The position numbers were made by a program, and so were the translations under genes. Below are positions 18,201 through 42,111 of a stretch of DNA of 42,111 nucleotides, one piece after another. The stretch spans positions 1 to 42,111 of the forward strand of contig JBFMEF010000054.1 in NCBI GenBank assembly GCA_040753495.1, written 5' to 3'. Below the pieces are notes generated by a model. That model saw only the letters and a program-made list of their open reading frames with translations, had not been told where the DNA came from and ran no database searches. The stretch is from Candidatus Zixiibacteriota bacterium. GTDB taxonomy: Bacteria; Zixibacteria; MSB-5A5; GN15; PGXB01. How positions within the stretch are numbered: position 1 is the stretch's first letter; each line of letters begins with the position of its first letter.

Positions 18201-18247
18201 ATTCGCTTTTACCTTAGAACGCCACCCGGGCGTTCCTGCTAAATGCC

Positions 18248-18460
18248 TCAGCCTCCGCCAAAGCCTACTTTGACCGCTCCATCTTCAATAATGACCGGTA
18301 CAATCGCCTGTCCGCCTGCAATTCGTATTGCCTCTTCTTTTGCTCCTTTTACAGAGTAGACGTCTATCTCCTTAAAAGGTATCCCCTCTTTGGTGTAATG
18401 TTCCTTGGCAGCAGCGCAATACGGGCATCCCGGCTTGGTGTAAATGGTAACCTCGGGCAT
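18248..18460 (-). CDS. glutaredoxin-like thiol-disulfide protein inside the nuo operon
   Basis: A 70-aa thioredoxin-fold protein: MPEVTIYTKPGCPYCAAAK has the CPYC active site, and QAIVPVIIEDGAVKVGFGGG carries the cis-proline and the C-terminal glycine-rich end common in short glutaredoxins. I prefer the ATG at 18460, because GGAGG lies five bases before it; an in-frame ATG at 18472 would overlap the nuoM stop. It begins one base after nuoM and precedes nuoN, so it is cotranscribed with complex I. Substrate unknown; it could maintain thiols or assist Fe-S or cysteine chemistry during assembly, but this is speculation. Confidence 0.88.
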   Translation of the reverse strand: MPEVTIYTKPGCPYCAAAKEHYTKEGIPFKEIDVYSVKGAKEEAIRIAGGQAIVPVIIEDGAVKVGFGGG

Positions 18461-18461
18461 T

Positions 18462-20042
18462 TCATCCTCCATCTACTTTCAGTGTGTAACTCTCTTTCGT
18501 TCCCAGGCGAAAAGCAACTCTTTCCGCCGCGGTATCCACACTGTCCCGACTGGACCGCTCAGCGCGGTGGACCATACCCAGAATATTTTTCACAGCCGGT
18601 TCCATCCTGACAAAAAACGGTTTGGGATAAATTCCAATCCAGAAAATCAGGAGCACCAGCGGTATCAAGACCAGTTTTTCACGCCCATAAAGGTCATGAA
18701 GATTTTCATTTACGGTCTGCGTAATCTTTCCAAAAATCACTCTCTGCAGCATCCAGAGCATATAACAGGCGGCAAGAATCACTCCTGTCGCCGCCAGAAC
18801 GGCGTAAGTGACATTTGCCTTGAAGGTTCCCAGGAGTATTAAGAACTCTCCGACGAATCCGTTTGTCAGCGGCAAACCTATTGACGACAATGCCACAATC
18901 ATGAAAAACACCGAAAAAACCGGCATCGATTTCGCCAATCCGCCGAACTCCGATATCAACCGGGTATGCCGCCGCTCGTATATCATGCCGACAATTAAGA
19001 AGAGCGCCCCGGTGGAGATGCCATGATTAATCATCTGAATCACGGCTCCTTCCAACCCCTGCACATTGAGCGCCATCATCCCCAGCATCACAAAACCGAG
19101 ATGCGACACTGATGAGAATGCCACCAGCGATTTTACATCCCGCTGAACCATCGCCACCAGCGCGCCATAGATGATTCCGATAATCGCCAGAATCGATATT
19201 AGCGGCACAAATTTTAAGGTTGCCTCGGGGAATAGCGGCAGGCAGATGCGGATGAAGCCGTATATTCCCATCTTCAAGAGCACGCCGGCAAGTATAACCG
19301 AACCGGCCGTGGGCGCCTCCACATGGGCATCGGGAAGCCAGGTATGGAAGGGCCAGACCGGCACTTTGATGGCAAACGCCAGCGCAAATGCCAGAAACAT
19401 GTAGGTCTGCGCTCCCAGCGGAATCGGCATCTGATATATCTTCAGCAGGTCAAAACTGTACTCCCCGGCATAGCCGTGGTACATGAAGAACAGATAAAGA
19501 AGCGCTACCAGCATCAGAAGCGACCCGAACATCGTGAAGAGAACAAATTTTATTGCCGCATAGATTTTTCTTGGTCCGCCCCAGACACCTATCAGGAAAT
19601 ACATCGGTATCAACATCGCTTCCCAGAAGACATAGAATAAGAAGAGGTCGAGAGCGACAAAGACTCCCAGCATCCCGGTCTCCAGCAGCAGCATCGATAT
19701 ATAGTACCCCTTGACTCCGGTAGTAATCGCCCCCCACGATGAAACAATCGCCAGCAGCGCCAATAATGTGGTCAGTAAAATCAAGAGCAGCGAAATACCG
19801 TCAATCCCCAGATGATAATTGATTCCAAAGGCGGCTACCCATGGCAGATTGATTTCAAACTGCATCCCATTGGCAAAGGGGTCAAACTGCACATATAAGA
19901 AAAAGGAGATCAGCATGGTGATGAAAGAGACAATTATGGCAATCCCTTTTATGGAATCTTTTGCCTCTTTAGGAACCAGCACCAAGAGCGCCGCGCCAAG
20001 AAGCGGGAAAAACGTAACCAGTGTCAGTATATCTATACCCAT
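18462..20042 (-). CDS. nuoM: NADH-quinone oxidoreductase subunit M
   Basis: The second antiporter-like subunit of complex I, 526 aa with about 14 helices. Landmarks include LFYVFWEAMLIPMYFLIGVWGG with its conserved glutamate, the FAIKVPVWPFHTWLPDAHVEAPT block with the pumping lysine, and VQRDVKSLVAFSSVSHLGF. About 40 hydrophilic residues at the C-terminus extend beyond the last helix. It follows nuoL by one base and is followed by the glutaredoxin gene. Confidence 0.97.
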   Translation of the reverse strand: MGIDILTLVTFFPLLGAALLVLVPKEAKDSIKGIAIIVSFITMLISFFLYVQFDPFANGMQFEINLPWVAAFGINYHLGIDGISLLLILLTTLLALLAIVSSWGAITTGVKGYYISMLLLETGMLGVFVALDLFLFYVFWEAMLIPMYFLIGVWGGPRKIYAAIKFVLFTMFGSLLMLVALLYLFFMYHGYAGEYSFDLLKIYQMPIPLGAQTYMFLAFALAFAIKVPVWPFHTWLPDAHVEAPTAGSVILAGVLLKMGIYGFIRICLPLFPEATLKFVPLISILAIIGIIYGALVAMVQRDVKSLVAFSSVSHLGFVMLGMMALNVQGLEGAVIQMINHGISTGALFLIVGMIYERRHTRLISEFGGLAKSMPVFSVFFMIVALSSIGLPLTNGFVGEFLILLGTFKANVTYAVLAATGVILAACYMLWMLQRVIFGKITQTVNENLHDLYGREKLVLIPLVLLIFWIGIYPKPFFVRMEPAVKNILGMVHRAERSSRDSVDTAAERVAFRLGTKESYTLKVDGG

Positions 20043-20043
20043 T

Positions 20044-21981
20044 TTACCTGAAAATGAAAATCCCCATGATGATAATTACACCAAGCGCGAATACGGTAAC
20101 ATAACTTCGCAACCGGCCGGTCTGCATATGACGAAATCCCTTGGAAATATCGCCCACGAGATAGGCTAAACCGTTCAAAAGACCGTCAATAAGAATCACG
20201 TCGACAATTTTCCAGAGGAAAATCGACCCGCTTACCAGAGGTCGCACAATCACTGCTCCATATAATTCATCCACAAAATATTTCCCGTAGAGTATCCGGT
20301 AAATTCCTGAAAATGACTTTTGCATCCGACCGGCCAGGGCGGTATTTTTCAAATAGAAGTAGTACGCCATATATATAGAGAAGAGAACTAATGCGACCGA
20401 AAGGACCATCAGAAGAAGCTCCGTTGTCGCGCTATGCCCTGCCGACATATGAATCTCCTCCGACGGCGCCGCATGGCTGGCGCCCATTACCGGCTCCAGG
20501 AATTTCTCAAACTGGTTGCCACCTCCCAGAACATGCGGTATCCCCACATATCCCCCAATAATTGATAGCGCCGCCAGAATGGACAGCGGAACCGTCATTA
20601 TCCTGGGCGACTCATGAATATGCTCTCTGGTATGGGCATCCATTCGCTCCGAACCGTAGAAAGTCAGATAGAGCAGTCGGAACATATAAAACGCCGTCAG
20701 CATCGCCGTGAAGACCGCCACCACCCATAACCAGGGCGAGCCATAACTGGAAGAGAAGGCTTTCCAGAGAATTTCATCCTTGGAGAAGAAGCCGGACAGT
20801 CCCGGAATACCGGCAATGGCAAGAGTCGCCACCAGAAAAGTGAGATAAGTTGTCCGCAGTCTGCTTTTTAATCCTCCCATATATCGCATATCCTGCTGTC
20901 CCGATAAGGCGTGAATCACCGAGCCGGCCCCCAGGAAAAGGAGCGCCTTGAAAAAGGCATGAGTCATCAAATGAAAAATTCCTGCGGCAAAGGCAGCCAC
21001 GCCGCAGGCGGTAAACATATATCCCAGCTGACTTATAGTCGAATATGCCAGTACCCGCTTTATATCATTTTGAGTCATGGCAATGGTTGCGGCAAGAAGC
21101 GCGGTAGCCATCCCCACAATAGCCACTATCATGAGAGTTGTCGGAGCCATCATATACAGCACATTGGAGCGCGCAATCATATAGACCCCGGCGGTAACCA
21201 TGGTGGCGGCATGTATCAAAGCCGAGACCGGCGTGGGACCTTCCATAGCGTCCGGCAACCAAACATATAGCGGAATCTGCGCCGACTTGCCGGTCGCTCC
21301 CAGAAACAGCAGAAGCGTCGCCGCCGTAATCAATCCGCCTCCGGCAATAAATATTTCCGGCGCCCGCTCAAAGACGGCCGTGAAATTAAGGGAGCCGACC
21401 TGCCAGAAGATAATGAACATCCCCAGCAGAAACCCGAAATCGCCAATGCGGTTGACGATAAAGGCTTTTTTCCCGGCATCGCTGGCCGACTGCTTTTCAA
21501 ACCAGAACCCGATTAGCAGGTAACTGCAAAGCCCAACCCCTTCCCACCCCACAAACATCAGCAGATAATTATTGGCTAAGACTAAAGTCAGCATCGAAAA
21601 CACAAAAAGATTCAGATAGGTAAAATATCGCCCGTAACCCTTGTCATCGTGCATGTATCCGACCGAATAGAGATGAATCAAGAACCCGACTCCCGAAACC
21701 ACCAGCGCCATAACCGCCGAAAGCGGGTCAAACAGAAAACCGAAATTTACGGAAAACTCTCCTGATGGAATCCAGGAAAAAAGCACTTCTTCTATCTGAC
21801 GTTCTGTCTCGGGAAGCGCCAGCAGATTGAAAAATGTCTTTAGACTCCAGATAAATGACAGCCCCACCGAACCGCATCCGATAATGGAGATGAGCCTTTT
21901 ATTCAGCCGTCCCAAAAGCAGGCCATTGAGCAGAAATCCCGCCAGGGGAAAAATCGGTATTAAATATAGCGAATAATCCAT
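20044..21981 (-). CDS. nuoL: NADH-quinone oxidoreductase subunit L
   Basis: The distal antiporter-like subunit, 645 aa, with the expected N-terminal helices, the core LFVGWEGVGLCSYLLIGFWF, GKSAQIPLYVWLPDAMEGPTPVSALIHAATMV and NDIKRVLAYSTISQLGYMF. The C-terminal 150 residues include the stretch that forms the long lateral helix and the anchor helix. It lies 13 bases after nuoK and one base before nuoM. Confidence 0.97.
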   Translation of the reverse strand: MDYSLYLIPIFPLAGFLLNGLLLGRLNKRLISIIGCGSVGLSFIWSLKTFFNLLALPETERQIEEVLFSWIPSGEFSVNFGFLFDPLSAVMALVVSGVGFLIHLYSVGYMHDDKGYGRYFTYLNLFVFSMLTLVLANNYLLMFVGWEGVGLCSYLLIGFWFEKQSASDAGKKAFIVNRIGDFGFLLGMFIIFWQVGSLNFTAVFERAPEIFIAGGGLITAATLLLFLGATGKSAQIPLYVWLPDAMEGPTPVSALIHAATMVTAGVYMIARSNVLYMMAPTTLMIVAIVGMATALLAATIAMTQNDIKRVLAYSTISQLGYMFTACGVAAFAAGIFHLMTHAFFKALLFLGAGSVIHALSGQQDMRYMGGLKSRLRTTYLTFLVATLAIAGIPGLSGFFSKDEILWKAFSSSYGSPWLWVVAVFTAMLTAFYMFRLLYLTFYGSERMDAHTREHIHESPRIMTVPLSILAALSIIGGYVGIPHVLGGGNQFEKFLEPVMGASHAAPSEEIHMSAGHSATTELLLMVLSVALVLFSIYMAYYFYLKNTALAGRMQKSFSGIYRILYGKYFVDELYGAVIVRPLVSGSIFLWKIVDVILIDGLLNGLAYLVGDISKGFRHMQTGRLRSYVTVFALGVIIIMGIFIFR

Positions 21982-21994
21982 CCCGTTTACGGCC

Positions 21995-22297
21995 TTACCA
22001 TTTTAGTAAGCTGAATCGGTCAGCATCAATGCTGTTCTTGTTGCGAAAGATAGTTATAATCATCGCCAGTCCCACCGCCGCCTCGGCCGCCGCCACCGCC
22101 AGCACCAGAAATACGAAAACATGTCCATCCATCAGATTCAAGAACCGTGAAAAGACAATAATCGCCAGATTGGCGGCGTTCAGCATTAGCTCTATCGACA
22201 TAAACATAATTATCAGATTGCGCGACAGGATCACGCCGGCGACCCCGATGGAAAACAGAAAGATGCTCACTATCAAATAATGCGGCATCGGTATCAT
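21995..22297 (-). CDS. nuoK: NADH-quinone oxidoreductase subunit K
   Basis: 100 aa and three membrane helices. The two buried glutamates of the proton path are present in MSIELMLNAANL and AAAEAAVGLA. It follows nuoJ directly with no spacing. Confidence 0.97.
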   Translation of the reverse strand: MIPMPHYLIVSIFLFSIGVAGVILSRNLIIMFMSIELMLNAANLAIIVFSRFLNLMDGHVFVFLVLAVAAAEAAVGLAMIITIFRNKNSIDADRFSLLKW

Positions 22298-22837
22298 TTA
22301 TTTGTCCTCCTCATCGTGGTCGGTCCGACCCCTCTTTGCCATTATCACGGCGCCGACAATCGCCACCAGAAGCAGTATTGAGGTCAGTTCAAAGGGATAT
22401 AGATATTGTGTATACAATAACTCCGCTACCGGCTTAACACTTCCAAAATCGGGCGTCGCCTCTACCATCAGCTTATCCATTCGCTCCGGAAAAGCGGTCT
22501 GTTTAACTATCATGAGAAGCTCAATCATAAGCGCCAGGGATATCAGCATTTTGGTGGCGCGCCCCAGCCGGGGACGTTGCTCCTCAAATCTCTCGCCCCG
22601 AAGATTCAAGAGCATGATTACAAACAGGAACAGCACCAGAATCGCTCCGGCATAAACAATAACCAGAATGGCGCCGACAAACATGGCGCTCAATTGAATA
22701 TATAAAGTGGCTTGCGCCAGAAGCGATACAATCAAATACAACACCGATGCCACCGGGTTGCGCTGCAAAATCATCATTAACGCCGCCCCAATCGCCATGA
22801 CGGCGGCAATGTAGAATATGACCAGTTCCAGAAGCAT
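22298..22837 (-). CDS. nuoJ: NADH-quinone oxidoreductase subunit J
   Basis: 179 aa with five helices. The third-helix stretch AILVIVYAGAILVLFLFVIMLLN carries the family's characteristic pi-bulge segment. Its start overlaps the nuoI stop by one base. Confidence 0.95.
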   Translation of the reverse strand: MLLELVIFYIAAVMAIGAALMMILQRNPVASVLYLIVSLLAQATLYIQLSAMFVGAILVIVYAGAILVLFLFVIMLLNLRGERFEEQRPRLGRATKMLISLALMIELLMIVKQTAFPERMDKLMVEATPDFGSVKPVAELLYTQYLYPFELTSILLLVAIVGAVIMAKRGRTDHDEEDK

Positions 22838-23313
22838 TAAAATATCCTTCGCACGCGCCGGATAATCCGCTTGAACGGTTTCTCCTTCTTAGGGCGATTG
22901 GCTAACATCTGCTCCTTAGTAAATATAAAGACATCCCGATTGTCATTAGAAAACTCATATTCATGTCCCAGAAAAATCGCTTCCTCCGGGCAGGCTTCTT
23001 CGCAGAAGCCGCAATAAATGCAACGGAGCAGATTTATCTCGTAAATTTTGGCGTATCGTTCCCCTTTTTCATTTTCGGCTCCTTCCATGTAAATGGCATC
23101 GGCCGGACAGGCCGCCGCGCATAATCCACAACAGACACACCGTTCGGTGCCGTCCTCATAGACTTCCAGATAGTGCAGTCCCCGATAGCGCGGAGCCATC
23201 TCTCTTTTCACCTTCGGATACTGAATCGTCACCGGTTTCTTGAAGAGATGCTTGAGGGTGGTGTAAAAACCCTTCGGTAGAGCGATAAAAACTGTTCTTA
23301 TGACATCAACCAT
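22837..23313 (-). CDS. nuoI: NADH-quinone oxidoreductase subunit I (two [4Fe-4S])
   Basis: The ferredoxin-like subunit that carries clusters N6a and N6b at the membrane interface. The 158-aa protein has two CxxCxxCxxxCP motifs: Cys59, 62, 65, 69 and Cys98, 101, 104, 108. The basic N-terminal helix and the GLHYLEVYEDGTERC lead-in are typical. It begins seven bases after nuoH. Confidence 0.97.
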   Translation of the reverse strand: MVDVIRTVFIALPKGFYTTLKHLFKKPVTIQYPKVKREMAPRYRGLHYLEVYEDGTERCVCCGLCAAACPADAIYMEGAENEKGERYAKIYEINLLRCIYCGFCEEACPEEAIFLGHEYEFSNDNRDVFIFTKEQMLANRPKKEKPFKRIIRRVRRIF

Positions 23314-23320
23314 AATTGTC

Positions 23321-24310
23321 CTACAGACGATACATCAGCGCCGTAACCATCACATTCAATAGCGCCAGTGGGAACAAGACCTTCCAGCCTAAATTCATCA
23401 ACTGGTCATACCGCAAACGCGGAAGAGTCGCCCGCAGCCAGATATAGAACGACATAAACATTGCCACTTTGATTCCAAACCAGACCACCGGTGGCAGCAA
23501 TGGACCCTGCCAGCCGCCGAGAAATATAGTCGTCGCCACACAGGAAACGGCCAGCATATTAGCATATTCCCCAATAAAGAACATGGCAAACCGCATTGAG
23601 GAATATTCGGTATGATACCCCGCCACTAATTCCGATTCCGCTTCGGGAAGGTCAAAAGGGGCGCGGTTGGTCTCGGCAATGGCGCAGATAACATAAAGCA
23701 CAAACCCAACCGGCTGCTTGAATATGAACCAGTCAAAAAACGAGCTCTGTTGCGCCACCAGCTCTTTCATCGAGAGAGTCCCGGCCATAACCAAAACCCC
23801 GATAATAGATAACCCATAGGCGACTTCATAGGAAATCATCTGTGCCGATGACCGGATTCCCCCCAGCAGTGAATATTTGGAGCCGGACGACCATCCCGCC
23901 AGAACGATACCATAGACCCCCAGCGATGTCACCGCGAAAACAAAGAGCACGCCGATATCGAGGTCGGAGATGACCATATCAATCTGATATCCGAACATCG
24001 TTACCGTGTCACCGAACGGCACAACCGCAAAGGACAGTAGTGAAGGAATGAACATCACAATCGGCGCCAGAGCATAAGTTATCCGCTCAACGTTATTAGG
24101 AACTATATCTTCCTTGAATACCAATTTTATCGCATCCGCTATCGGCTGCAGCAAGCCAAACGGACCGGCCACATTGGGTCCGATACGATGCTGAAAATGT
24201 CCGACCAGTTTCCGCTCTAACCAGGTGCTGTATGCGCATCCGGTCAGAACCGCCAGCACAACTACAATTACCTTGATGGAGGAAATCAGCATGATTTCGG
24301 TGTAACTCAT
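23321..24310 (-). CDS. nuoH: NADH-quinone oxidoreductase subunit H
   Basis: The membrane subunit that forms much of the quinone chamber; 329 aa and about eight helices. It shows STWLERKLVGHFQHRIGPN near the N-terminus and the acidic loop AETNRAPFDLPEAESELVAG. Its start overlaps the nuoG stop as an ATGA-type junction. Confidence 0.97.
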   Translation of the reverse strand: MSYTEIMLISSIKVIVVVLAVLTGCAYSTWLERKLVGHFQHRIGPNVAGPFGLLQPIADAIKLVFKEDIVPNNVERITYALAPIVMFIPSLLSFAVVPFGDTVTMFGYQIDMVISDLDIGVLFVFAVTSLGVYGIVLAGWSSGSKYSLLGGIRSSAQMISYEVAYGLSIIGVLVMAGTLSMKELVAQQSSFFDWFIFKQPVGFVLYVICAIAETNRAPFDLPEAESELVAGYHTEYSSMRFAMFFIGEYANMLAVSCVATTIFLGGWQGPLLPPVVWFGIKVAMFMSFYIWLRATLPRLRYDQLMNLGWKVLFPLALLNVMVTALMYRL

Positions 24311-26841
24311 TTTTCCTCCACTCGAATCAAACGCACCCGGTCGATTCTTTTCTTCCGCATCTGCAGTATATTAGCGGCAGTCCCCGAGAAATTTTTGCTT
24401 ACCAGAATCACATCATTATCCAGCAGCTCCGATACTTTCGCCGGCAATACCATTTTGCCGGTCTCCGATTCCAGACGAACCAGGGAACCATTCTCTATCT
24501 GCAGTTTTTCCGCCAGCGACGGGGCAATTTCCGCCTGCGCCTCGGCGGCAAATGCCGCCAGTGAACGAGTCCGCTCGGTCAGATGTCCGAAGTGATGCAT
24601 CTCATCCACGACAAAGAGCGCATAAGGAAAATCTTTTTCACTTTTTTCTTCAACAAATTTGACTTCTGCCAAAGCATCCGAAACAGTCGGAAGCGATTCT
24701 GTTTTCAGGAGCTCCAGCATCTCACGCTCGAGATCTTTGACGTCAGTAAATAGCGCCCCCTTGAACTCCTGGGCGATTTCCTCTATAATCTGTCGTCCCG
24801 GACGCGAATTCCCCACCGGTTTGATTGCCGCATCGAAATGCTGCATGGTTCCTTCCAGATTGATGAAATGCCCGCTCTGCTCTACCCAGCTTGAGAGCGG
24901 AAGCACCACATCGGCTTTTTCCGTTGTCTCTGTTTCGTAGAGGTCGGCGACGACAGTAAAATCGAGTTTATCCAATCCCTCCCGGACAAATTGACCATCG
25001 GGAAATGATGCTACCGGATTGGCGCCAATAATCAGAAGGGCATCCAGCTCTTCTTTCTTTGCCGCATAAATCATTCGGTCGGTCGCCCGCCCTTCCGTCT
25101 CAGGGAAAGCGCCCCACAACGACTTCAGTTTTTCCTGGAGTTCCTTTGAAAGACTTGGCATGACTCCCAGCAATTCGGCGCCTTTGCTGTTGGCCGCCCT
25201 TGATAATATCGCCGCCTGTCCCCGCCCCTTCAAGTTTAAGACTATCGTCAAATTATGAATGGCGGCAGCAATCGCCTCGCGCGCCGGAGAGCCACTGACA
25301 AGTTCACCAACAATTATGCTGACATTCTTGGCGCTCCTCAAGGCCTCAGCCAATTCATGGAGCCTTGTTTCTGGAATACCGCAAATCTCCGCCGCTTTCG
25401 TCATGGTGTGCGGCTCCAATTTGGATTTCATCTCTCCCAACTGGACCTTGGTCTCCTTTGCGGCATTCTCGGCAATGCTTATACATAGTCCATTTAGAAG
25501 CGCCTCCAAAGTGCCGGGAATATGAATCATTTCATCCTGGGACAGGTCCCCTGATTTGGTCGCAAAGGGGTTGATAGTATAAAGCTTGGCGCCCCTCTGA
25601 CTGACCGCTTTACGCACTCTGATATGAACGATGGGATGCTCTTTTATCAAGTTTGAACCGACCACCAGAATCATGTCCGATTTTTCTATATCGGCAATCC
25701 GAAATCGGGCGGAGGTCAGATTGCCGTAATACGGATTTTCCTTTTCCGGCAGCATCTTATATTCGGTGCGAAAATCGATATTATTGGAGTGAAGTTGCGT
25801 CCGGAAAAATTTCGAGAACGCCACAAGGGTCTCGCAATCCTGTTGTGGAGAAATCAAGCCTCCGATGCAGACCCCCCCTTTTTTATCCTTAATCTCCCGG
25901 AACTTTCGCGCAATCAGTCCGATTGCCTCGTCCCAGGTCGCCGCTACCTGCTTATCCCCTTTCTTTATCAGCGGGGTCATTAATCGTCCCTCCGCCGCCG
26001 CTATCTGGTATCCATAACGTCCCACATCGCATATCCACCCTTCATCGATAGCGTCATTCCTTCGTGAGGTCGCCCGGTAGACTTTGTCGCGCTCTTTCCA
26101 GAGGGTTAGATTGCAGCCATCGGCGCAATATGAGCAGATTGATTTGACCTGCTGCGTCTTCCAGACCCGAATTTTGTACCGCCAGTCAGTATTGGTCAAT
26201 GCCCCCACCGGGCAGATTTCCACCAGATTGCCGGAGTAAATGGAATCAACCTTCTCCCCCGGAGCGGCATCTATTTCACTGATATTCCCCCGCTGAAAAA
26301 CTCCCAAGTCATATTCCCCGAATACCTCTTTGTTGGCGCGGACGCATTTGAAACATAAGATACAGCGGTTCTGATTTCTAATCATCTCCGGACCGATGCG
26401 ATAGTCATCAAAGGTCGATTTCCGGTCGCGGATGAAGCGGTATTTATTGAAGTCAAAGCGGGAATCGTCTATTCCGTGCGCGAAAGTGTTGTCCTGTAAA
26501 TCGCATTCCCCTCCTTTATCACAGGTGGGGCAATCGAGCGGATGATTTATAAGTATAAACTCCAGCACCGCCTTGCGTCCCTGCTTGACCTTTTCACTCT
26601 CGGTGTTCACCACCATTCCCGGCATAGCCTCAGTGGCGCAGGAGACTTGAAGTTTCGGCATCTTTTCTATTTCGACATAACAGATTCGGCATGCCCCGAC
26701 CGGCTTCAGTTTTGGATGCCAGCAGAAGGTCGGTATTTCTATCCCAACCGACTTTGCCGCCTCGAGCACTGTCGTCCCTTTAGGCACAGTCACTTCCCGG
26801 CCGTTTATCGTCAATGTTACTGTCGCTACCGTATCAGACAT
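24307..26841 (-). CDS. nuoG: NADH-quinone oxidoreductase subunit G
   Basis: 844 aa. The N-terminal [2Fe-2S] site uses Cys40, Cys51, Cys54 and Cys68. N5 uses His100, Cys104, Cys107 and Cys113. N4 uses Cys160, 163, 166 and 210. Next comes CxxCxxxC-x27-C at Cys236, 239, 243 and 271, the spacing of the off-path N7 cluster. The rest is a molybdopterin-oxidoreductase-like domain without the metal cofactor role. It overlaps nuoF by one base and nuoH by four. Confidence 0.97.
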   Translation of the reverse strand: MSDTVATVTLTINGREVTVPKGTTVLEAAKSVGIEIPTFCWHPKLKPVGACRICYVEIEKMPKLQVSCATEAMPGMVVNTESEKVKQGRKAVLEFILINHPLDCPTCDKGGECDLQDNTFAHGIDDSRFDFNKYRFIRDRKSTFDDYRIGPEMIRNQNRCILCFKCVRANKEVFGEYDLGVFQRGNISEIDAAPGEKVDSIYSGNLVEICPVGALTNTDWRYKIRVWKTQQVKSICSYCADGCNLTLWKERDKVYRATSRRNDAIDEGWICDVGRYGYQIAAAEGRLMTPLIKKGDKQVAATWDEAIGLIARKFREIKDKKGGVCIGGLISPQQDCETLVAFSKFFRTQLHSNNIDFRTEYKMLPEKENPYYGNLTSARFRIADIEKSDMILVVGSNLIKEHPIVHIRVRKAVSQRGAKLYTINPFATKSGDLSQDEMIHIPGTLEALLNGLCISIAENAAKETKVQLGEMKSKLEPHTMTKAAEICGIPETRLHELAEALRSAKNVSIIVGELVSGSPAREAIAAAIHNLTIVLNLKGRGQAAILSRAANSKGAELLGVMPSLSKELQEKLKSLWGAFPETEGRATDRMIYAAKKEELDALLIIGANPVASFPDGQFVREGLDKLDFTVVADLYETETTEKADVVLPLSSWVEQSGHFINLEGTMQHFDAAIKPVGNSRPGRQIIEEIAQEFKGALFTDVKDLEREMLELLKTESLPTVSDALAEVKFVEEKSEKDFPYALFVVDEMHHFGHLTERTRSLAAFAAEAQAEIAPSLAEKLQIENGSLVRLESETGKMVLPAKVSELLDNDVILVSKNFSGTAANILQMRKKRIDRVRLIRVEEK

Positions 26842-34413: not shown

Positions 34414-36330
34414 ATGAAAAAGCCTAAAGAAGACCGCTTTCCGACCGGACGACTTATCATTCTGGTTATTGCTCTGATATATCTGTTTACCGGACCATTG
34501 CATCTGGAAATGCTCTGGGGTGTCAATCATCTTAAATATCTACCCGGCTACTCCCTTTTTATATTTGCATTGGCCATCCTGATTGGAGTGCTTGACAGCC
34601 CCTTGTCCTCAACGCTTAACGTCTTTCAATCTCTGAAACGGAAATTTGCTTCTCTCTCCCTGAGAATGCGATTGATTCTCTTGACAGTGGCTGCCATGGG
34701 ATTCTTCTATCTCCTGCGGGTAAAGGTTCATGCCCTGGGCGATGGCTATCAGCGAATCTATCAGATCGAGAGAGGATATTATTTTTATCTCACTGAAGCT
34801 CTCGATTTTTTCCTTCATGCCGCGCTTTTTCGTTTCTTTCGTTTATTCACAACCCTGTCCGCGGAATCAATCTACGTCGCCTTCAGTATTCTCTGCGGCG
34901 CCGTTTTTATCTTCGTCCTTTACCGTCAGTATTTTTCCGTGAAGTCATCAGACCAGGCAACGCTGCTATTTCCCTTTCTCCTTTCCACATTGTGCGGCGC
35001 TGTCCTCTTTTTTGGTTATGTCGAATCTTATTCATTATATTATCCGGCCGTCTTGCTCTATCTCGTATTTTCGCTCAACTATTTTCAGAGAGGACGAAAT
35101 ATCCTTACCGGAGCGGTCTGTCTCTCAATCGCCATTCTTTCACATCAAAGCGCCCTCTTCCTTCTCCCTTCTTTCGTCCTGCTGGCGTTACACTACTATC
35201 GAAAAAGCGATGCCGCTTTTCCCCGCCTTCTTCCTGCCGCTATAGTTGCATTTTCTCTTATTATTCTGCTGGCGCTTGAAATTTACAATCGTCTTAATTA
35301 TTCCGAATATCTCAAGAGTTTTGGCGAGAATTTCCTGCCGCTTTTCTCGGGCGAGTATCCTGCCTTATCACTGATGCACTTCCTCGACCTGACGAATCTT
35401 GTCCTGCTGATATTTCCCCTGGCTCCACTATTTATATATCTGGCGCTACGGCGGGACGCTTCCCAAATGAAATTGCCCGACGGCACTCGATGGTTTCTCT
35501 GGGCAGTTTTGGCTGGCTCTCTTTTCTTTCTCATCTTTGTTGACCCCAAACTCGGCATGCCCCGCGACTGGGACCTTTTCGCCACTCCCGCCGCATCGCT
35601 CGCTTTTGTTGTTATCGCTTTTGCGGTCAATCGTTGTCAACTGGGGAGATTGGAGCAGTTCCGCCTTGGGTACTTTGCCCTCCTTTTCTTTTCTCTCTGG
35701 ATCGCTGTCAATGCCTCGGAAGCGCGGCAATTGGAGCGCGCCGAGTCAATTCTAAAACTGAGTCCCAAGGGGCAGGATTACGGCACCGAACTTCTCGCCT
35801 TTCATTATCGTAACAAACTGAATAATAATCCCAAAGCGCTGGCGCTCTTCCAAAGCATTAAAGGGAAAGGACGCAACGCCCGCGTTCTCGGAACTATCGC
35901 CCAGATGCAACTTGAGATGGGGCTGGTCAATCAGGCTTTGGCGACCGCCCGCGAGGGATTGCCGCTCGACAGCAGCGGCGCTCTGCACGCCGTAACCGGC
36001 ACTATCCTTATGCGCCTTGATAGCGTCTCTTCAGCTCTACCGCATCTTCTGAAGGCGGTTGAATTGAGTCCTCAGACCGCCCGCAGTTTCTACCTTCTGG
36101 GACAGGCTTACTACCGGCTCGAAAACGATACCGCCGCCATCAGCGCTTTCAAATCATCGCTGGCTCTTGACCCGGCCGCTCACCCCGCCATGTTTAGCGT
36201 TGGGCAGGCTTATCTCCGCCTTGGGCAACTCGATTCCGCCTATGTCTATATTGAAGCCGGTCTCAAATTAAATCCCCAGGACCAGCAGGCCTGGGAATTA
36301 ATGAACTTCATCCGCAGCCAGAGACGATAG
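34414..36330 (+). CDS. polytopic membrane protein with C-terminal TPR domain
   Basis: 638 aa. Residues 10-440 hold about a dozen hydrophobic segments, with HALGDGYQRIYQIERGYYF after the third and PKLGMPRDWDLFATPAAS in a late loop. The layout resembles GT-C type polyprenol-sugar glycosyltransferases or related membrane enzymes, but I see no decisive motif. From about 480 to the end are three to four tetratricopeptide repeats (ALFQSIKGKGRNARVLGTIA, LPHLLKAVELSPQTARSFY, AISAFKSSLALDPAAHPAMF). AGAGAGG adjoins the ATG. The protein may assemble a surface-glycan or lipid enzyme with partners; unproven. Confidence 0.8.
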   Translation: MKKPKEDRFPTGRLIILVIALIYLFTGPLHLEMLWGVNHLKYLPGYSLFIFALAILIGVLDSPLSSTLNVFQSLKRKFASLSLRMRLILLTVAAMGFFYLLRVKVHALGDGYQRIYQIERGYYFYLTEALDFFLHAALFRFFRLFTTLSAESIYVAFSILCGAVFIFVLYRQYFSVKSSDQATLLFPFLLSTLCGAVLFFGYVESYSLYYPAVLLYLVFSLNYFQRGRNILTGAVCLSIAILSHQSALFLLPSFVLLALHYYRKSDAAFPRLLPAAIVAFSLIILLALEIYNRLNYSEYLKSFGENFLPLFSGEYPALSLMHFLDLTNLVLLIFPLAPLFIYLALRRDASQMKLPDGTRWFLWAVLAGSLFFLIFVDPKLGMPRDWDLFATPAASLAFVVIAFAVNRCQLGRLEQFRLGYFALLFFSLWIAVNASEARQLERAESILKLSPKGQDYGTELLAFHYRNKLNNNPKALALFQSIKGKGRNARVLGTIAQMQLEMGLVNQALATAREGLPLDSSGALHAVTGTILMRLDSVSSALPHLLKAVELSPQTARSFYLLGQAYYRLENDTAAISAFKSSLALDPAAHPAMFSVGQAYLRLGQLDSAYVYIEAGLKLNPQDQQAWELMNFIRSQRR

Positions 36331-36582: not shown

Positions 36583-38019
36583 ATGGGAAACCTGAAATCA
36601 AACCGCAAAATAGAACCCCGTCTGCTGAAAGGGTTTCGCGATTACCCGCCGGAAGAAGAGATGGCGCGTCAGACTCTCATTGCAAGAGTCCGCTCCATTT
36701 ACGAGCGGTACGGTTTTCTCCCGCTGCAAACACCAGCCCTGGAATATGCCGAGACTCTTCTGGGCGCCGACTATACCGCCGACAATCTCAAAGAACTTTT
36801 CGGTTTCCGCGGTCCCGATGATGTCGATATGGCTCTTCGCTATGAATTCACCGTCTCCCTCGCCCGGTATATCGCGGTCAATCCGGAACTGGCTTTACCG
36901 TTCCGACGCTACCAATATGGTCCGGTCTGGCGGGTCGATAAGCCGGGACCGGGACGGTTCCGCGAATTTATGCAGTGTGATTTTGATATAGTCGGCACTT
37001 CTTCCATGCTGGCTGATGCCGAGATTATCGCCGTTATGGTCGAAGTGATGAGCGCTCTCGGAATCAAAAACTTCCTGGTGCGTTATTCCAATCGGAAACT
37101 GATAAACGGCCTCTCCGCCTTTGCCGGCATACCCGATAGCCGTCTGCAGGATGTCTTCCGTGTCATCGATAAACTGGAGAAACAGGGACGGGAGGCGGTT
37201 GTTCTTGAACTTGGACCTGGTCGAACCGATAAGTCCGGCGACAAAATTCCTGGCTTAAATCTTGAGAAAAAACAGATTGACTATTTGATGCGATTTATTG
37301 ATATCGCCGCCACCCAACCTCGCGACCTTCTCGACAGTGTCGAAAAGCTATTGGGCGATATTGAAATTTCCCGACAGGGTTTGGAAGAATTGCGTCAGAT
37401 AGAGCAATATCTCTCTCGGATGAATGTCCCGGTTGATAAAACAAGAATCGATATCACCATAGTTCGTGGTTTGGGCTACTATACCGGCCCGGTTTATGAA
37501 ACCACATTGCTGGAGTTGCCGGAGTATGGCTCTGTTTTCTCCGGTGGACGATACGACAACCTTATTGAGCGATTCTCCAGCAAACCGCTTCCTGCCACCG
37601 GTTCCTCTTTTGGCGTCGATAGAATGCTCGCCGCTCTTATCGCTCTTAATGCCGTTACGCTCACGAAAGCGACATCTCAAGTGCTCGTGACTACCATGGA
37701 TAAATCGCTAATCGATGACTATATCTCCCTTGTGGCTGAAATTCGGCGCTCCGGTATTAACGCCGAACTTTTTATAGGGGAAACCAAGAACTTGAACAAG
37801 CAACTCAAATATGCTGACCGTATCGGTATTCCCCTGGCGGTCATATCCGGTTCCGACGAATTTCAGTCCGGCACCGTCACGGTTAAAGACCTTCGCGCCG
37901 GCGCCGAAAGAGCCCGCAATCTGACCGACCGCGATGAATGGCTTAAGGCCGAGCAGGTGCAGGAAACGATTGACCGCTCCCAGCTAATCCTTTACCTCAA
38001 GCGAAAACTGGCGCAATAA
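36583..38019 (+). CDS. hisS: histidyl-tRNA synthetase (variant type)
   Basis: 478 aa class II synthetase that charges tRNA-His. Motif 2 region reads RYQYGPVWRVDKPGPGRFRE then FMQCDFDIVG, and RGLGYYTGPVYETTL and FSGGRYDNLIERF are the histidine-site motifs. GRFREFxQCDFDIVG is the form found in eukaryotic, archaeal and alphaproteobacterial enzymes; common bacterial HisRS has a GRYRQFHQLGCE-like sequence here. This fits the adjacent tRNA that lacks G-1:C73. No strong ribosome site precedes the ATG; a short CCAGTTT/AAACTGG hairpin lies at 36559-36574. Confidence 0.96.
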   Translation: MGNLKSNRKIEPRLLKGFRDYPPEEEMARQTLIARVRSIYERYGFLPLQTPALEYAETLLGADYTADNLKELFGFRGPDDVDMALRYEFTVSLARYIAVNPELALPFRRYQYGPVWRVDKPGPGRFREFMQCDFDIVGTSSMLADAEIIAVMVEVMSALGIKNFLVRYSNRKLINGLSAFAGIPDSRLQDVFRVIDKLEKQGREAVVLELGPGRTDKSGDKIPGLNLEKKQIDYLMRFIDIAATQPRDLLDSVEKLLGDIEISRQGLEELRQIEQYLSRMNVPVDKTRIDITIVRGLGYYTGPVYETTLLELPEYGSVFSGGRYDNLIERFSSKPLPATGSSFGVDRMLAALIALNAVTLTKATSQVLVTTMDKSLIDDYISLVAEIRRSGINAELFIGETKNLNKQLKYADRIGIPLAVISGSDEFQSGTVTVKDLRAGAERARNLTDRDEWLKAEQVQETIDRSQLILYLKRKLAQ

Positions 38020-38086: not shown

Positions 38087-38767
38087 ATGAATGGCATAGT
38101 CACTGTTTTCGATGATGAATTAGCCGCCCTCAAAGACTACAGCCTGGTCGATGATATCATCAAGCGGGCCGGCGCTAAGTTCTATCGCGGCCGCCTTAAT
38201 GAGCAAAATATCATTTTCACCAAAGTCGCCAATAATCCACTTGAAGCCGCTCTGGCGGCACAACTGTTGGCGGACCATTTTGAGGTCACCCGCCTATTTT
38301 TCAGCGGAATCGCATCTCCTCTGGCTCCATTCATTAATGACGGTGACCTTATTATCGCCAATTATTTCATAGAAAGTTCCTCACCAGACCGGACCGTTAT
38401 GTTTGAAGCCGATGAGAAAATGCTGTCAACAATCAGGACTGTAAGCGCTGTTCCGCAGCGGGGACGAAACCCCCATATATTCGGCGCCTTCGCGAAAACG
38501 ACACCAGACCCTGTCAGCGCCGCGCGCGTCAAAAACCTCCAGCGGGAGTTTGGTATAATTGCGGCGGATGAGACTGGCGCCGCCTTTGCCTTTGCTTGTC
38601 GGCGCAACAGCGTTCCCTTCGCCGTTATCGATGTCGCGGTTGGCTCTGATGAGATTGATGAGAAAAGCCTTAACGATAAATACCACTCCTCCATCCTTGA
38701 CCTCTTCGAAATTAAAGGATTGACTCTGGTGGAATTGACCCTCTCCGCTCTCACTGCCGACTTATAA
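38087..38767 (+). CDS. nucleoside phosphorylase/MTA-SAH nucleosidase-like protein
   Basis: 226 aa with the fold pattern of the purine phosphorylase/MTA nucleosidase superfamily: VTVFDDELAAL at the N-terminus, LFFSGIASPLAPFINDGDLIIANYF in the centre, and DETGAAFAFACRRNSVPFAVIDVAVGSDE, which matches the ME(A/T)xAxAxVC and the final D of the family. The match is partial, so the catalytic Glu and Asp need alignment. GGAGG precedes the ATG. It follows hisS by 67 bases. Substrate not certain; true MTAN activity is possible but unproven. Confidence 0.7.
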   Translation: MNGIVTVFDDELAALKDYSLVDDIIKRAGAKFYRGRLNEQNIIFTKVANNPLEAALAAQLLADHFEVTRLFFSGIASPLAPFINDGDLIIANYFIESSSPDRTVMFEADEKMLSTIRTVSAVPQRGRNPHIFGAFAKTTPDPVSAARVKNLQREFGIIAADETGAAFAFACRRNSVPFAVIDVAVGSDEIDEKSLNDKYHSSILDLFEIKGLTLVELTLSALTADL

Positions 38768-38806: not shown

Positions 38807-40339
38807 ATGCGAATAAAGACCTTCCGACTACTGTCGCTTCTGATACCAATATTTCCACTCATTTTTACTCAGAATTTGGCGCAGTCGCAGGCATCTGAAG
38901 GGGTCAAGTCATTTGAGCGATATCGCGCCGAAAACTCCCGGCGCACGTATCAATTCCTTCTCAATTCGGAGCCGTTCGGCACTCTGGAGTCGGTATATGA
39001 CGGCACGGCGCGCTTTAAAGGCTCCCGTGGCCATCGCTTAATTGAAAAACTGAATCTCGACTTCTCTTCCTTCGCCAATCCTTATAAACTCACAATCGAG
39101 AATGAGCATTACAGCGATGATTCAGGGCGATATCTGGGTGATGAAATGAGCCTCCGAATAGATGACGTATCGCAGGAGTTGTTTCTCAGTTACAAGAATG
39201 GAAAAATTGCCGGCTATCTCGAACGTGACCGCCAGAAAGATAACATCGAACGGGATGTTCCCCTTCCCGTTTTTGCCGTGGATAACTATCTGGTTGACCA
39301 ACTAGAGCTTTTCCTCGCTTTTCACGACCTTAATGTTGGCGATACCATCACCGATTCCTTCTTCGTTCCCCAGACCGCCATCTTTTCGCCAGCGCGCTAT
39401 ATTGTCGAGGGATTTGCTCGGATTCCATATGGCAACATGGTTGATTCCGCCTTTATATGCCGCTTTCTGGAACCGCTGGAGCAGACTGCCTATGTCACCC
39501 GTGACCGGCGGCTTATAAAATTGGTGCAACCATATCAGAATATCACCATAGTTCTCAATGAAACCATCCTGGACCGACTGCGACCGCCGAAGAAGTCTTT
39601 CACTCTATCCGATTTTGTTCGCCGCCTTCCTCTTTATCTATTCTTTCTCGGAATCGGTGTCGTCCTGACCGCCCCCTTCTGGGTCAGGTACCGTCGCCAC
39701 ACAAGCATATTTTTTGCCTTTATAGCAGGAGCCCTTGTTTACCTTTTGGTCGGTGTCACCCATATCCCTTTGCAGGAATGGTATTCCAATCGTGTCGTTT
39801 TCCCGGCCATTCAGCAGGGCGGCTCAATTTATGCCTTCACTGTCGGCAATGCTCTTTTGACGGGACTTGTAAAAGAACTGCTTAAGATTTTGCCGGTAAT
39901 TCTCTTCTTCTACCTCCGAAAGACCAATCTGCCGCCCTTATATATCCTGGGCATCTTTTGCGGAGCCGGCTTCGGAATTTTTGAATCGGGCGCGCTGACG
40001 GGCGACGCCTATCAAGCGGGAGCAATGAAATTTCTCTCCTGGGGAGCGTTCGAACGAATCACCGCTCTGGTATTTCAAATGACATCGGGAGCCCTGTACG
40101 GCTGGGCGCTGTGTCATTCTCTGCCCCGGACCGTATCGATTTTTATCGCCCTTTTTGCGCTCCATTCCTTCTCTGCCTATCTCATCGTATTCGTCCAGAA
40201 AAAAATCCTCGACATTGCCCTCTTTGAGCTTCTGGTGGCGCTCATTTACCTGATTCTACTTCTTATCGCCTACCTGAAAATCTCCGGCAGCCCCCTATTC
40301 AATAAGCCTCCTTCTCAAAGAAAATCAGGCAAGAGCTGA
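38807..40339 (+). CDS. periplasmic-domain plus PrsW-like membrane protease fusion
   Basis: 510 aa. A signal-like hydrophobic stretch (residues 6-22) is followed by about 240 soluble residues, rich in beta-like segments, that I do not recognise. From about 275 on there are eight or so membrane segments. Among these GLVKELLKILPVILF, GAGFGIFESGAL and a later HSFSAY resemble the E..K, G.GF...E and H motifs of PrsW/CPBP-type intramembrane proteases. Such proteases cleave anti-sigma factors or process prenylated peptides. The soluble part could sense or present a substrate. Both assignments are tentative. Confidence 0.65.
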   Translation: MRIKTFRLLSLLIPIFPLIFTQNLAQSQASEGVKSFERYRAENSRRTYQFLLNSEPFGTLESVYDGTARFKGSRGHRLIEKLNLDFSSFANPYKLTIENEHYSDDSGRYLGDEMSLRIDDVSQELFLSYKNGKIAGYLERDRQKDNIERDVPLPVFAVDNYLVDQLELFLAFHDLNVGDTITDSFFVPQTAIFSPARYIVEGFARIPYGNMVDSAFICRFLEPLEQTAYVTRDRRLIKLVQPYQNITIVLNETILDRLRPPKKSFTLSDFVRRLPLYLFFLGIGVVLTAPFWVRYRRHTSIFFAFIAGALVYLLVGVTHIPLQEWYSNRVVFPAIQQGGSIYAFTVGNALLTGLVKELLKILPVILFFYLRKTNLPPLYILGIFCGAGFGIFESGALTGDAYQAGAMKFLSWGAFERITALVFQMTSGALYGWALCHSLPRTVSIFIALFALHSFSAYLIVFVQKKILDIALFELLVALIYLILLLIAYLKISGSPLFNKPPSQRKSGKS

Positions 40340-40484: not shown

Positions 40485-41723
40485 ATGAGAGGGGCAGTAG
40501 GGTCTGAAAATAAGAGTCTGAAAACTGCTGTAAATATCTCCGCCCGCGGCAAGGCGCTTCCCGCCTCCCCCATTCGAAAACTGATTCCTCTTGCTGAGCA
40601 GGCTAAAGCCCGCGGCATAAAGATTTACCACCTTAATATCGGGCAGCCTGATATCGAAACACCGCCCGAATTCTGGTCGGCTGTCAAGAATTATACCAAC
40701 AAAGTCCTTGCCTACGGCAACTCGCAGGGTATGGCTGACTACTTGAAGAAGCTGTCGCAGTATTATCGCCAGCGGGGACTGGATATTGAACCCGATAATA
40801 TTATTGTTACCACCGGCGGCTCCGAAGCGATAATCTTCGCCATGACTATCATCTGCGAGCCAGGTGACGAGCTAATTGTCTTTGAGCCGTTTTACACTAA
40901 CTACAATGGCTTTGCGGTGCAGGCGGGAATAAGATTGGTTCCCCTAATTACCCGCGCCGAAGATGGTTTTCATCTTCCTTCCGAATCTGTAATTGAAAGC
41001 GCCCTCACCGCCAAAACCCGCGGCATTCTCTACTGCAACCCCAATAATCCTACCGGAACTGTTTATTACGACTCAGAGCTGGAGATGCTTCGCCGCCTTG
41101 CCCTGAAGCATGGATTATTCCTACTGGCTGATGAGGTCTATCGCGAATTTATCTATGAAGGCAAACATAGAAGTGTTATGTCTCTTGACGGTCTCTCTGA
41201 CAGCGCCATAATGCTCGATTCCATTAGCAAGAGATTCTCCGCCTGCGGCGCCCGGGTAGGCAATCTCGTAACCAGAAATCGTGATGTTTATCAAGCGGCG
41301 CTTCATCTCGGGCAGGCGCGGCTTTGCTCTCCAACACTGGAGCAGGTCGGAGCCGCTGCCGCCTATGACCTCGATGACCGATACTTTGTCAAGACTATCG
41401 ATGAGTATCGCCGGCGACGCGATGTCGTCTATGAAGGTTTGATGCAGATACCCGGCACCGTTTGCATCAATCCCGGCGGGGCTTTCTATATTATGGCAAA
41501 GCTCCCTATGAATGACGCCGAAAAATTCGCCTCTTTTCTTCTCACTGATTTCCATCTCAATGGCAAGACTGTCATGATTGCCCCCGGACCAGGATTCTAT
41601 GCCACCCCCGGTTTGGGACAGCAGGAATGCAGGATTGCCTATGTGCTGAATACTGATGACCTTAAAGACGCCATGCTGCTTCTGAAAGCGGGCGTTGATG
41701 CCTATAATTCTAAGGGGATATGA
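40485..41723 (+). CDS. class I/II pyridoxal-phosphate aminotransferase
   Basis: 412 aa. The family motifs NIGQPDI (51-57), NPNNPTG (185-191), ADEVYR (215-220) and the PLP lysine Lys249 in DSISKRFSACGARVG are all present. It is an aspartate-aminotransferase-like (fold type I) enzyme; amino donor and acceptor cannot be told. AAAGG lies upstream of the ATG, which is preceded by an operator-bearing promoter. The ROK kinase gene follows after 60 bases. Confidence 0.93.
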   Translation: MRGAVGSENKSLKTAVNISARGKALPASPIRKLIPLAEQAKARGIKIYHLNIGQPDIETPPEFWSAVKNYTNKVLAYGNSQGMADYLKKLSQYYRQRGLDIEPDNIIVTTGGSEAIIFAMTIICEPGDELIVFEPFYTNYNGFAVQAGIRLVPLITRAEDGFHLPSESVIESALTAKTRGILYCNPNNPTGTVYYDSELEMLRRLALKHGLFLLADEVYREFIYEGKHRSVMSLDGLSDSAIMLDSISKRFSACGARVGNLVTRNRDVYQAALHLGQARLCSPTLEQVGAAAAYDLDDRYFVKTIDEYRRRRDVVYEGLMQIPGTVCINPGGAFYIMAKLPMNDAEKFASFLLTDFHLNGKTVMIAPGPGFYATPGLGQQECRIAYVLNTDDLKDAMLLLKAGVDAYNSKGI

Positions 41724-41783: not shown

Positions 41784-42111
41784 ATGAAAAACGTTGACCA
41801 CTACGCCGGAATCGATATCGGGGCAACTAATATCAAGTATGGGCTGTTTGATTCCACCGGCAAAATCATCTTTCGTGACCAGAAACCGGCTCTGGTCGAA
41901 AAAGGAGCCACCCCTTTATTGCATCTGGTCACCAATATCGGCGAGAATCTTCTTCTCCACGCGGCGGAAGAAGAGATGAGTGTCCGCTGGCTAGGTGTCG
42001 GTTCCCCCGGCATAATAAACAATGTCACCGGAGAGGTTGCCGGAGCCTGTCCCAATATACCGGGCTGGGTTGGAATCAAAATCGGGGCGCACCTGAAGGA
42101 ACATCTCAACC
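41784..42111 (+). CDS. ROK-family sugar kinase, N-terminal part (runs off the window)
   Basis: The open frame starts at ATG 41784 and continues to the end of the window (109 codons). The N-terminus has YAGIDIGATNIKYGLFD, the phosphate-1 loop of ROK kinases and repressors, and GVGSPGIINNVTG is the next landmark. No helix-turn-helix precedes the kinase domain, so it is more likely a kinase (glucokinase-like) than a repressor. No strong ribosome site is visible upstream. Confidence 0.88.
   Translation, partial: MKNVDHYAGIDIGATNIKYGLFDSTGKIIFRDQKPALVEKGATPLLHLVTNIGENLLLHAAEEEMSVRWLGVGSPGIINNVTGEVAGACPNIPGWVGIKIGAHLKEHLN

Follow-up and report, generated by a model that had tools for sequence, protein, structure and literature searches.

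Does a bacterial gene that joins an exported domain to a PrsW-like membrane domain encode a working intramembrane protease, or a protein in which the protease fold serves another end? The question is raised by an open reading frame of 510 amino acids with an ATG start (38807..40339, + strand) on contig JBFMEF010000054.1 of Candidatus Zixiibacteriota bacterium, positions 1 to 42,111 of which form the 42,111-nucleotide stretch analysed here (hereafter, the window). PrsW is a signalling protease, and the initial annotation regarded the product as an unrecognised soluble domain fused to a protease of this kind, possibly a site-1/site-2-like signalling device. Its outline has been borne out: the one frame encodes both a signal-led soluble stretch and a multi-span half, and the KELLK, GFGIFE, and late histidine to which it drew attention are found at residues 356-360, 388-393, and 453 (H453).

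Table 1. Features of the fusion gene and its neighbours, in window coordinates.
Feature	Position	Strand	Basis and remarks
Histidyl-tRNA synthetase (hisS), upstream	36583..38019	+	TIGR00442, 366.7 bits, cut-off 286.75; cluster in 12/21 loci
Nucleoside phosphorylase-superfamily protein, MTA/SAH nucleosidase-like, upstream	38087..38767	+	Below NCBIfam cut-offs; cluster in 7/21 loci
Putative signal peptide (1-27) and predicted EipB/LolA-like beta-spiral (28-260)	38807..39586	+	AlphaFold2, VIA-align
Predicted seven-helix PrsW/APH-1-type membrane domain, residues 267-494	39605..40288	+	Model helices, APH-1 match, hhalign to PrsW
P321-L322-Q323 after helix 2, periplasmic end by predicted topology	39767..39775	+	58-member alignment, model helices
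Motif 1, KELLK, residues 356-360 (PrsW EExxK)	39872..39886	+	58-member alignment; register by hhalign
Motif 2, FGIFE, residues 389-393 (PrsW FxxxE)	39971..39985	+	58-member alignment
Motif 3 position, Q424 (codon CAA)	40076..40078	+	Alignment, same-genus comparison
Motif 4 His, H453 (PrsW H175 position)	40163..40165	+	58-member alignment
Class I/II aminotransferase, downstream	40485..41723	+	PF00155; cluster in 6/21 loci
ROK-family sugar kinase, downstream, cut by window end	41784..42111	+	Clusters with full-length L094 gene (PF00480); 15/21 loci

The fusion ORF is real and conserved. Of the phylum's 132 genomes, 71 have a match to a family profile, mostly one each; a search made without the profile gave a homologue in 63 of 98 relatives, and a plasmid search gave no family match. 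Motif counts refer throughout to 58 members, one per genome, drawn from 58 of the 71 profile-positive genomes; the members of the 13 genomes left out of the counts (G029, G030, G046, G049, G052, G059, G062, G065, G068, G070, G071, G073, and G098) are partial, split, stop-bearing, or unfetched. Both halves are complete in 56 of the 58 aligned members, and the remaining two (L011 and L020), truncated by contig ends, give gap cells in the counts. Of the first 30 loci, 27 entered the set A1. The copy from the same genus is 83% identical to the window protein, and in this one pair dN/dS is about 0.09 for the whole gene (dN 0.094; dS 1.06, which is near saturation) and about 0.06 for the membrane half (dN 0.068, dS 1.15). 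Such low values in one species pair point to purifying selection on the fusion gene. A tree of 57 members (L020 omitted, seven motif columns blanked, midpoint root) follows taxonomy, with 4 changes for five taxonomic families; as this is the minimum number possible, the fusion gene has been inherited vertically.

The exported half was correctly described as unrecognised insofar as no sequence passed a cut-off in Pfam scans of the beta domain, but its predicted fold is recognisable. The fold prediction that had been proposed for it yielded a confident model of residues 28-260 (AlphaFold2 on these residues alone, pLDDT 93.5, pTM 0.90), namely an EipB-like beta-spiral. With this predicted model as the query, VIA-align placed Brucella EipB first (6ntr_D, Z 15.5, rmsd 3.4, 201 aligned of 236), followed by a DUF1089 protein (2h1t_A, Z 15.0, 162 aligned) and a chain of the bovine sperm axoneme (9fqr_Xh, Z 14.7, 212 aligned). 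These three are tied and lie well above RseB, MucB, LolA, LolB, LppX, and LprG (Z about 5 to 9, with RseB at 8.7 and MucB at 7.5). Foldseek gave E 1.5e-6 against 9fqr_Xh and 5.0e-6 against EipB. At the level of sequence, the EipB model (PF08904) found nothing above its cut-off in 129 genomes, and no match listed falls on the family gene; across 129 genomes the DUF1089 model likewise had nothing over cut-off on the family gene, and a PDB search by sequence with the beta half returned chance-level matches only. DUF3108 (PF11306) remained below cut-off on two members (L016, 17.3 bits; G015, 21.4 bits), and hhalign of the beta half with DUF3108 gave 12% (reversed, 0.9%), a weak similarity; an origin of the beta domain from DUF3108 is not supported by these comparisons. 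The window's genome yielded no second copy of the domain. The predicted likeness to EipB (DUF1849) concerns the beta-spiral fold and the periplasmic location. Apart from the missing PF08904 match, the family differs from EipB in that the latter, as portrayed in the relevant part of PMC10787603, is a periplasmic protein and not part of a membrane protein. The same portion of that paper presents EipB as a protein that affects envelope integrity and resembles LolA/LolB, with its function unsettled.

The membrane half is homologous to PrsW, a relation that emerges from the sequences of the family and not from the window sequence alone. The PrsW model (PF13367) passes its cut-off of 23.5 bits on four members (G008, 32.3; G106, 25.9; G061, 25.8; G031, 24.5) and matches six at E below 0.001, with G021 and G049 under the cut-off; these matches lie on the membrane half. 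The window protein alone has no PF13367 match, and Pfam and NCBIfam scans assign it to no accepted family; TssN was rejected as a candidate for it (E 0.034, under cut-off). The link to PrsW rests on the genome profile search and on profile comparison, because Pfam scans of single sequences are weak (PrsW in one of 27 members, and weakly). When the membrane half was compared by hhalign with the phylum's stand-alone PrsW proteins (a profile of 8 of the 11 stand-alone ORFs, with motifs checked on the full reading frames of all 11), the result was 91.4% (53 of 57 sequences used) and all four motifs lined up; a second comparison gave 89.4% (40 of 41 sequences used), again with the motifs in register. 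Reversed PrsW (the control), CPBP, and DUF3108 profiles gave 0.2% each. The proposal of an exported domain fused to a PrsW-type membrane domain is upheld by these figures, the profile search suggested at the time having succeeded with the four members and not with the window protein. For CPBP (PF02517), represented by 19 proteins of relatives, hhalign to the membrane half gave 0.2%, but the test is a weak one: PrsW against CPBP gave 0.1%, PrsW and CPBP being reported as remote homologues in the section of PMC6588880 on this superfamily. Motif 1 of CPBP is given there as EExxxR, a pattern that the family, with QExxK as its commonest form and FxxxE as motif 2, does not follow.

A full-length AlphaFold2 model built from 15 sequences (mean pLDDT 82.2) has a pTM of 0.54, at which the relative placement of the two halves is not reliable. 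It contains seven long helices and an extra helix at 319-336. The best solved fold for the predicted membrane half is that of APH-1, a non-catalytic subunit of gamma-secretase (5a63_C, Z 18.9, rmsd 5.2, 223 aligned of 243). Next come 7tm3_6, from the multipass translocon (Z 17.3, rmsd 4.2, 214 aligned), and 9c7u_C, from the BOS complex (Z 15.7), both of which we take, from the entry titles, to be TMEM147; the first unrelated helical row stands at Z 8.0. Foldseek matches to APH-1 were modest (E 6.9e-3 and 8.8e-3). Rce1 (4cad) is absent among the structural matches listed, an absence that excludes nothing. By sequence, no PDB chain was matched by the membrane half or by the stand-alone PrsW proteins, and the Aph-1 model (PF06105) had nothing above its cut-off in the 129 genomes searched, with no match listed on the family gene. 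The N-terminus is probably outside and the C-terminus inside, because a basic loop follows helix 1 and the C-terminus is basic. At the putative periplasmic end of helix 2, P321 is kept in 56 and Q323 in 55 of the 58 members.

The motifs of B. subtilis PrsW (YpdC/PrsW type), in the passage of PMC12943098 devoted to them, are E75E76xxK79, F110xxxE114, H138, and H175xxxD/N179, and the double change E75A/E76A as well as H175A indicate that these residues are functionally important. The fusion family shares with PrsW a homologous membrane domain and the same order of four motifs, and the spacing is similar (75 to 175 in that passage, 356 to 453 in the window protein). It differs from PrsW in that the first Glu is replaced by Gln or Lys, that the late His is often Asn or Asp, and that a large exported beta domain stands in front. 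The phylum's 11 stand-alone PrsW ORFs all retain EExxK, FxxxEN, His, and HxxxN. Among the 58 fusion proteins, the E75 position holds Q in 46, H in 4, E in 4, K in 2, L in 1, and I in 1, the window protein having K356. Glu is found at the E76 position (E357) in 40, Lys at the K79 position (K360) in 44, and Glu at the E114 position (E393) in 50. The H138 position (424) is occupied by H in 49, N in 4, Q in 2, F in 1, C in 1, and a gap in 1, and the H175 position (453) by H in 20, N in 27, D in 5, K in 4, V in 1, and a gap in 1. The commonest form of motif 1 is QExxK (33/58), that of the window protein being KExxK, and in 12 of the 58 members E357, K360, E393, H424, and H453 are all kept with the first Glu alone changed. 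Mean column identity is 41-44%, and E393, H424, K360, and E357 are conserved above that level. The window protein itself carries K356, E357, K360, E393, Q424, and H453; the CAA codon of Q424 is one base away from the CAT (His) of the same-genus relative.

By its motifs, the family is a PrsW homologue and not a canonical PrsW protease, because EE occurs in 2, the late His in 20, and the two together in none of the 58 members. By analogy with Rce1, the first Glu is presumed to act as the general base, and its replacement by Gln is a usual way of disabling such enzymes. Proteolysis has probably been lost, because Gln, or Lys in the window protein, takes the place of this residue; the weight laid on the first Glu alone derives from work on Rce1, since the B. 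subtilis passage gives only the E75A/E76A pair. The assignment as a protease is weakened to this extent: the homology to PrsW stands, but the first Glu is kept in only 4 and the late His in 20 of the 58 members, and the middle His of the window protein is Gln. Conservation of the Glu, Lys, and His residues in homologues, which the initial annotation had named as decisive, holds for K360 and E393 and fails for the first Glu and the late His.

On the tree, Gln occupies the first motif-1 position in all but one of the five family clades. Gln-His-His at 356, 424, and 453 is suggested to be the old state, because it is spread over families f9, f2, and f1 and two f4 members, the root being only a midpoint. 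The four divergent members of the f8 clade (L119-L122) carry Glu in first place, with EExxK in two of them; at the three remaining motif positions they show Gln, Asn/Cys, and Lys. To judge from these residues, f8 represents a different route to losing the canonical active site.

The reading that we prefer, to which we give roughly even chances, is that of an inner-membrane receptor or chaperone, in which a ligand-binding EipB/LolA-like domain is carried on a PrsW-derived pseudoprotease scaffold; its role and class of ligand are putative, and both folds and the topology are predicted from models. The beta-spiral half would most likely sit in the periplasm and bind an acyl chain, a lipoprotein, or a hydrophobic peptide, and it would act in one chain, in the inner membrane, with the seven-helix PrsW/APH-1-type domain. 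The latter keeps much of the polar core of PrsW (the second Glu, the Lys, the motif-2 Glu, and usually the middle His) but probably no longer cuts; by analogy with APH-1 and TMEM147, it most likely acts as a scaffold or funnel in which the ligand is held or to which it is passed on. In APH-1 and in TMEM147 of the Nicalin-TMEM147-NOMO complex, as in the family, an outer domain stands beside the membrane domain, and the predicted seven-helix fold has these proteins as its best solved matches. Nicastrin and nicalin have a different fold and are chains of their own, whereas the outer domain of the family is fused and is predicted to be a beta-spiral; moreover, no sequence match links the family to APH-1 or TMEM147. 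TMEM147 and APH-1 are described, in the part of PMC7505659 that deals with them, as funnels that accommodate a portion of a partner. APH-1, which is related to CPBP and PrsW, has QExxR at the matching place according to the pertinent section of PMC6588880; the QExxK found in 33 of the 58 members has the same Gln-Glu but Lys for the Arg, and the window protein has KExxK.

Against the receptor or chaperone reading, E393, H424, K360, and E357 are conserved as the residues of an active site would be, and the Gln-Glu pair might support an unusual protease. The strongest alternative, which we regard as unlikely, is an intramembrane protease that still cuts with a modified active site, in which E357, E393, and H453 would be catalytic and the beta domain would sense envelope stress or recognise substrate. 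It draws on the homology to PrsW, on the retention of E357 and E393, on the purifying selection in one species pair, and on the broad fold that the beta domain has in common with the envelope-stress proteins RseB and MucB; however, the first Glu is changed in 54 of the 58 members and the late His is absent from 38 (one of them a gap), and EE is in no case combined with the late His, as opposed to the full set of motifs in each of the phylum's 11 stand-alone PrsW proteins. PrsW joined to an extra domain is also found in the PrsW-PilZ protein LIC_20173 of Leptospira (as described in part of PMC12943098) and in PrsW-toxin fusions (PMC3482391). In these fusions the PrsW domain leads at the N-terminus with the added domain behind it, whereas in the present family the added domain is exported and precedes the membrane domain, and the catalytic motifs of LIC_20173 are reported to be intact in the passage of PMC12943098 on this protein. 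In the open-licence literature, no paper was found that pairs PrsW with Zixibacteria, PrsW with pseudoprotease, or Zixibacteria with intramembrane protease. PrsW matches over cut-off occur in 17 of 132 genomes, and a stand-alone PrsW is found together with the fusion protein in several (e.g., G005, G023, G028, G032, G036, and G067); thus, the fusion protein is not a replacement for PrsW there. The window's own genome has no PrsW match and one CPBP match.

The neighbourhood also bears on the protease alternative. Neighbours were clustered in 21 loci and families scanned on representatives, with single genes mostly unidentified; at one of the 21 loci (L105) the clustering missed the family gene, which the alignment contains. 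In addition to the clusters in Table 1, a small membrane protein recurs in 10 and a methyltransferase in 6 of the 21 loci, and the identified neighbours are mostly housekeeping genes. No sigma, anti-sigma, or site-2 protease gene is among the identified neighbours, many single genes being unidentified, and the suggested site-1/site-2-like device is thus left unsupported. No ligand, partner, or operon link of the fusion protein was found. The nucleosidase-like protein upstream reaches 62.8 bits against a cut-off of 169, compared with 236.1 for its relative in L111, and is possibly divergent or altered. The small protein, exemplified by L094:9979-10350 (+), has 124 amino acids, is probably a membrane protein, and at E 0.001 matches nothing in Pfam or NCBIfam; in many relatives it is encoded downstream of the fusion gene, at a distance of two or three genes, and its cluster is present in 10/21 loci. 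Upstream of hisS, 34414-36330 encodes a 638-amino-acid protein with a hydrophobic N-terminal part and C-terminal TPR repeats. Elsewhere in the window, an FG-GAP repeat protein (9364-10740) and a subtilase (13954-16677) both end in a type I dockerin domain, and 16755-26841 (-) carries NADH:quinone oxidoreductase (complex I) genes (four of the ORFs scanned).

It is rather improbable that the protein takes part in inner-membrane lipid or lipoprotein transfer, with the beta domain loading cargo, the membrane funnel feeding it, and the PrsW chemistry unused. EipB, LolA, LolB, LppX, and LprG folds do appear among the matches of the beta domain, but the last four score Z about 5 to 7, a level reached by unrelated models; the membrane half also has an LptG match (7efo_G, Z 8.0), but a Z of 8 is below the chance level of helical bundles; and no ATPase or lipid-transport gene is among the identified neighbours. 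A chance or decaying fusion without function is highly improbable: one in-frame stop in each of two members (G046 and G030) and the lack of a match in 61 of 132 genomes might suggest decay, but dN/dS in the one pair is low, inheritance has been vertical over five families, and both halves are complete in nearly all aligned members, and a scaffold fits better than a decaying gene because the polar core is conserved but altered and purifying selection is seen in the pair.

For automated annotation the family is a warning, as members that pass the PrsW model would be named proteases without possessing the canonical catalytic set. More tentatively, the family may be a bacterial counterpart of the APH-1/TMEM147 principle, in which a PrsW-derived pseudoprotease funnel and a periplasmic ligand-binding domain are combined in a single chain throughout the class, and the same Glu-to-Gln change as in APH-1 would mark the pseudoprotease. 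If this is true, the step from protease to scaffold happened also in bacteria, independently of or before eukaryotes. A vertically inherited family with an APH-1-like altered centre and a periplasmic domain of its own offers a bacterial model of a protease becoming a scaffold.
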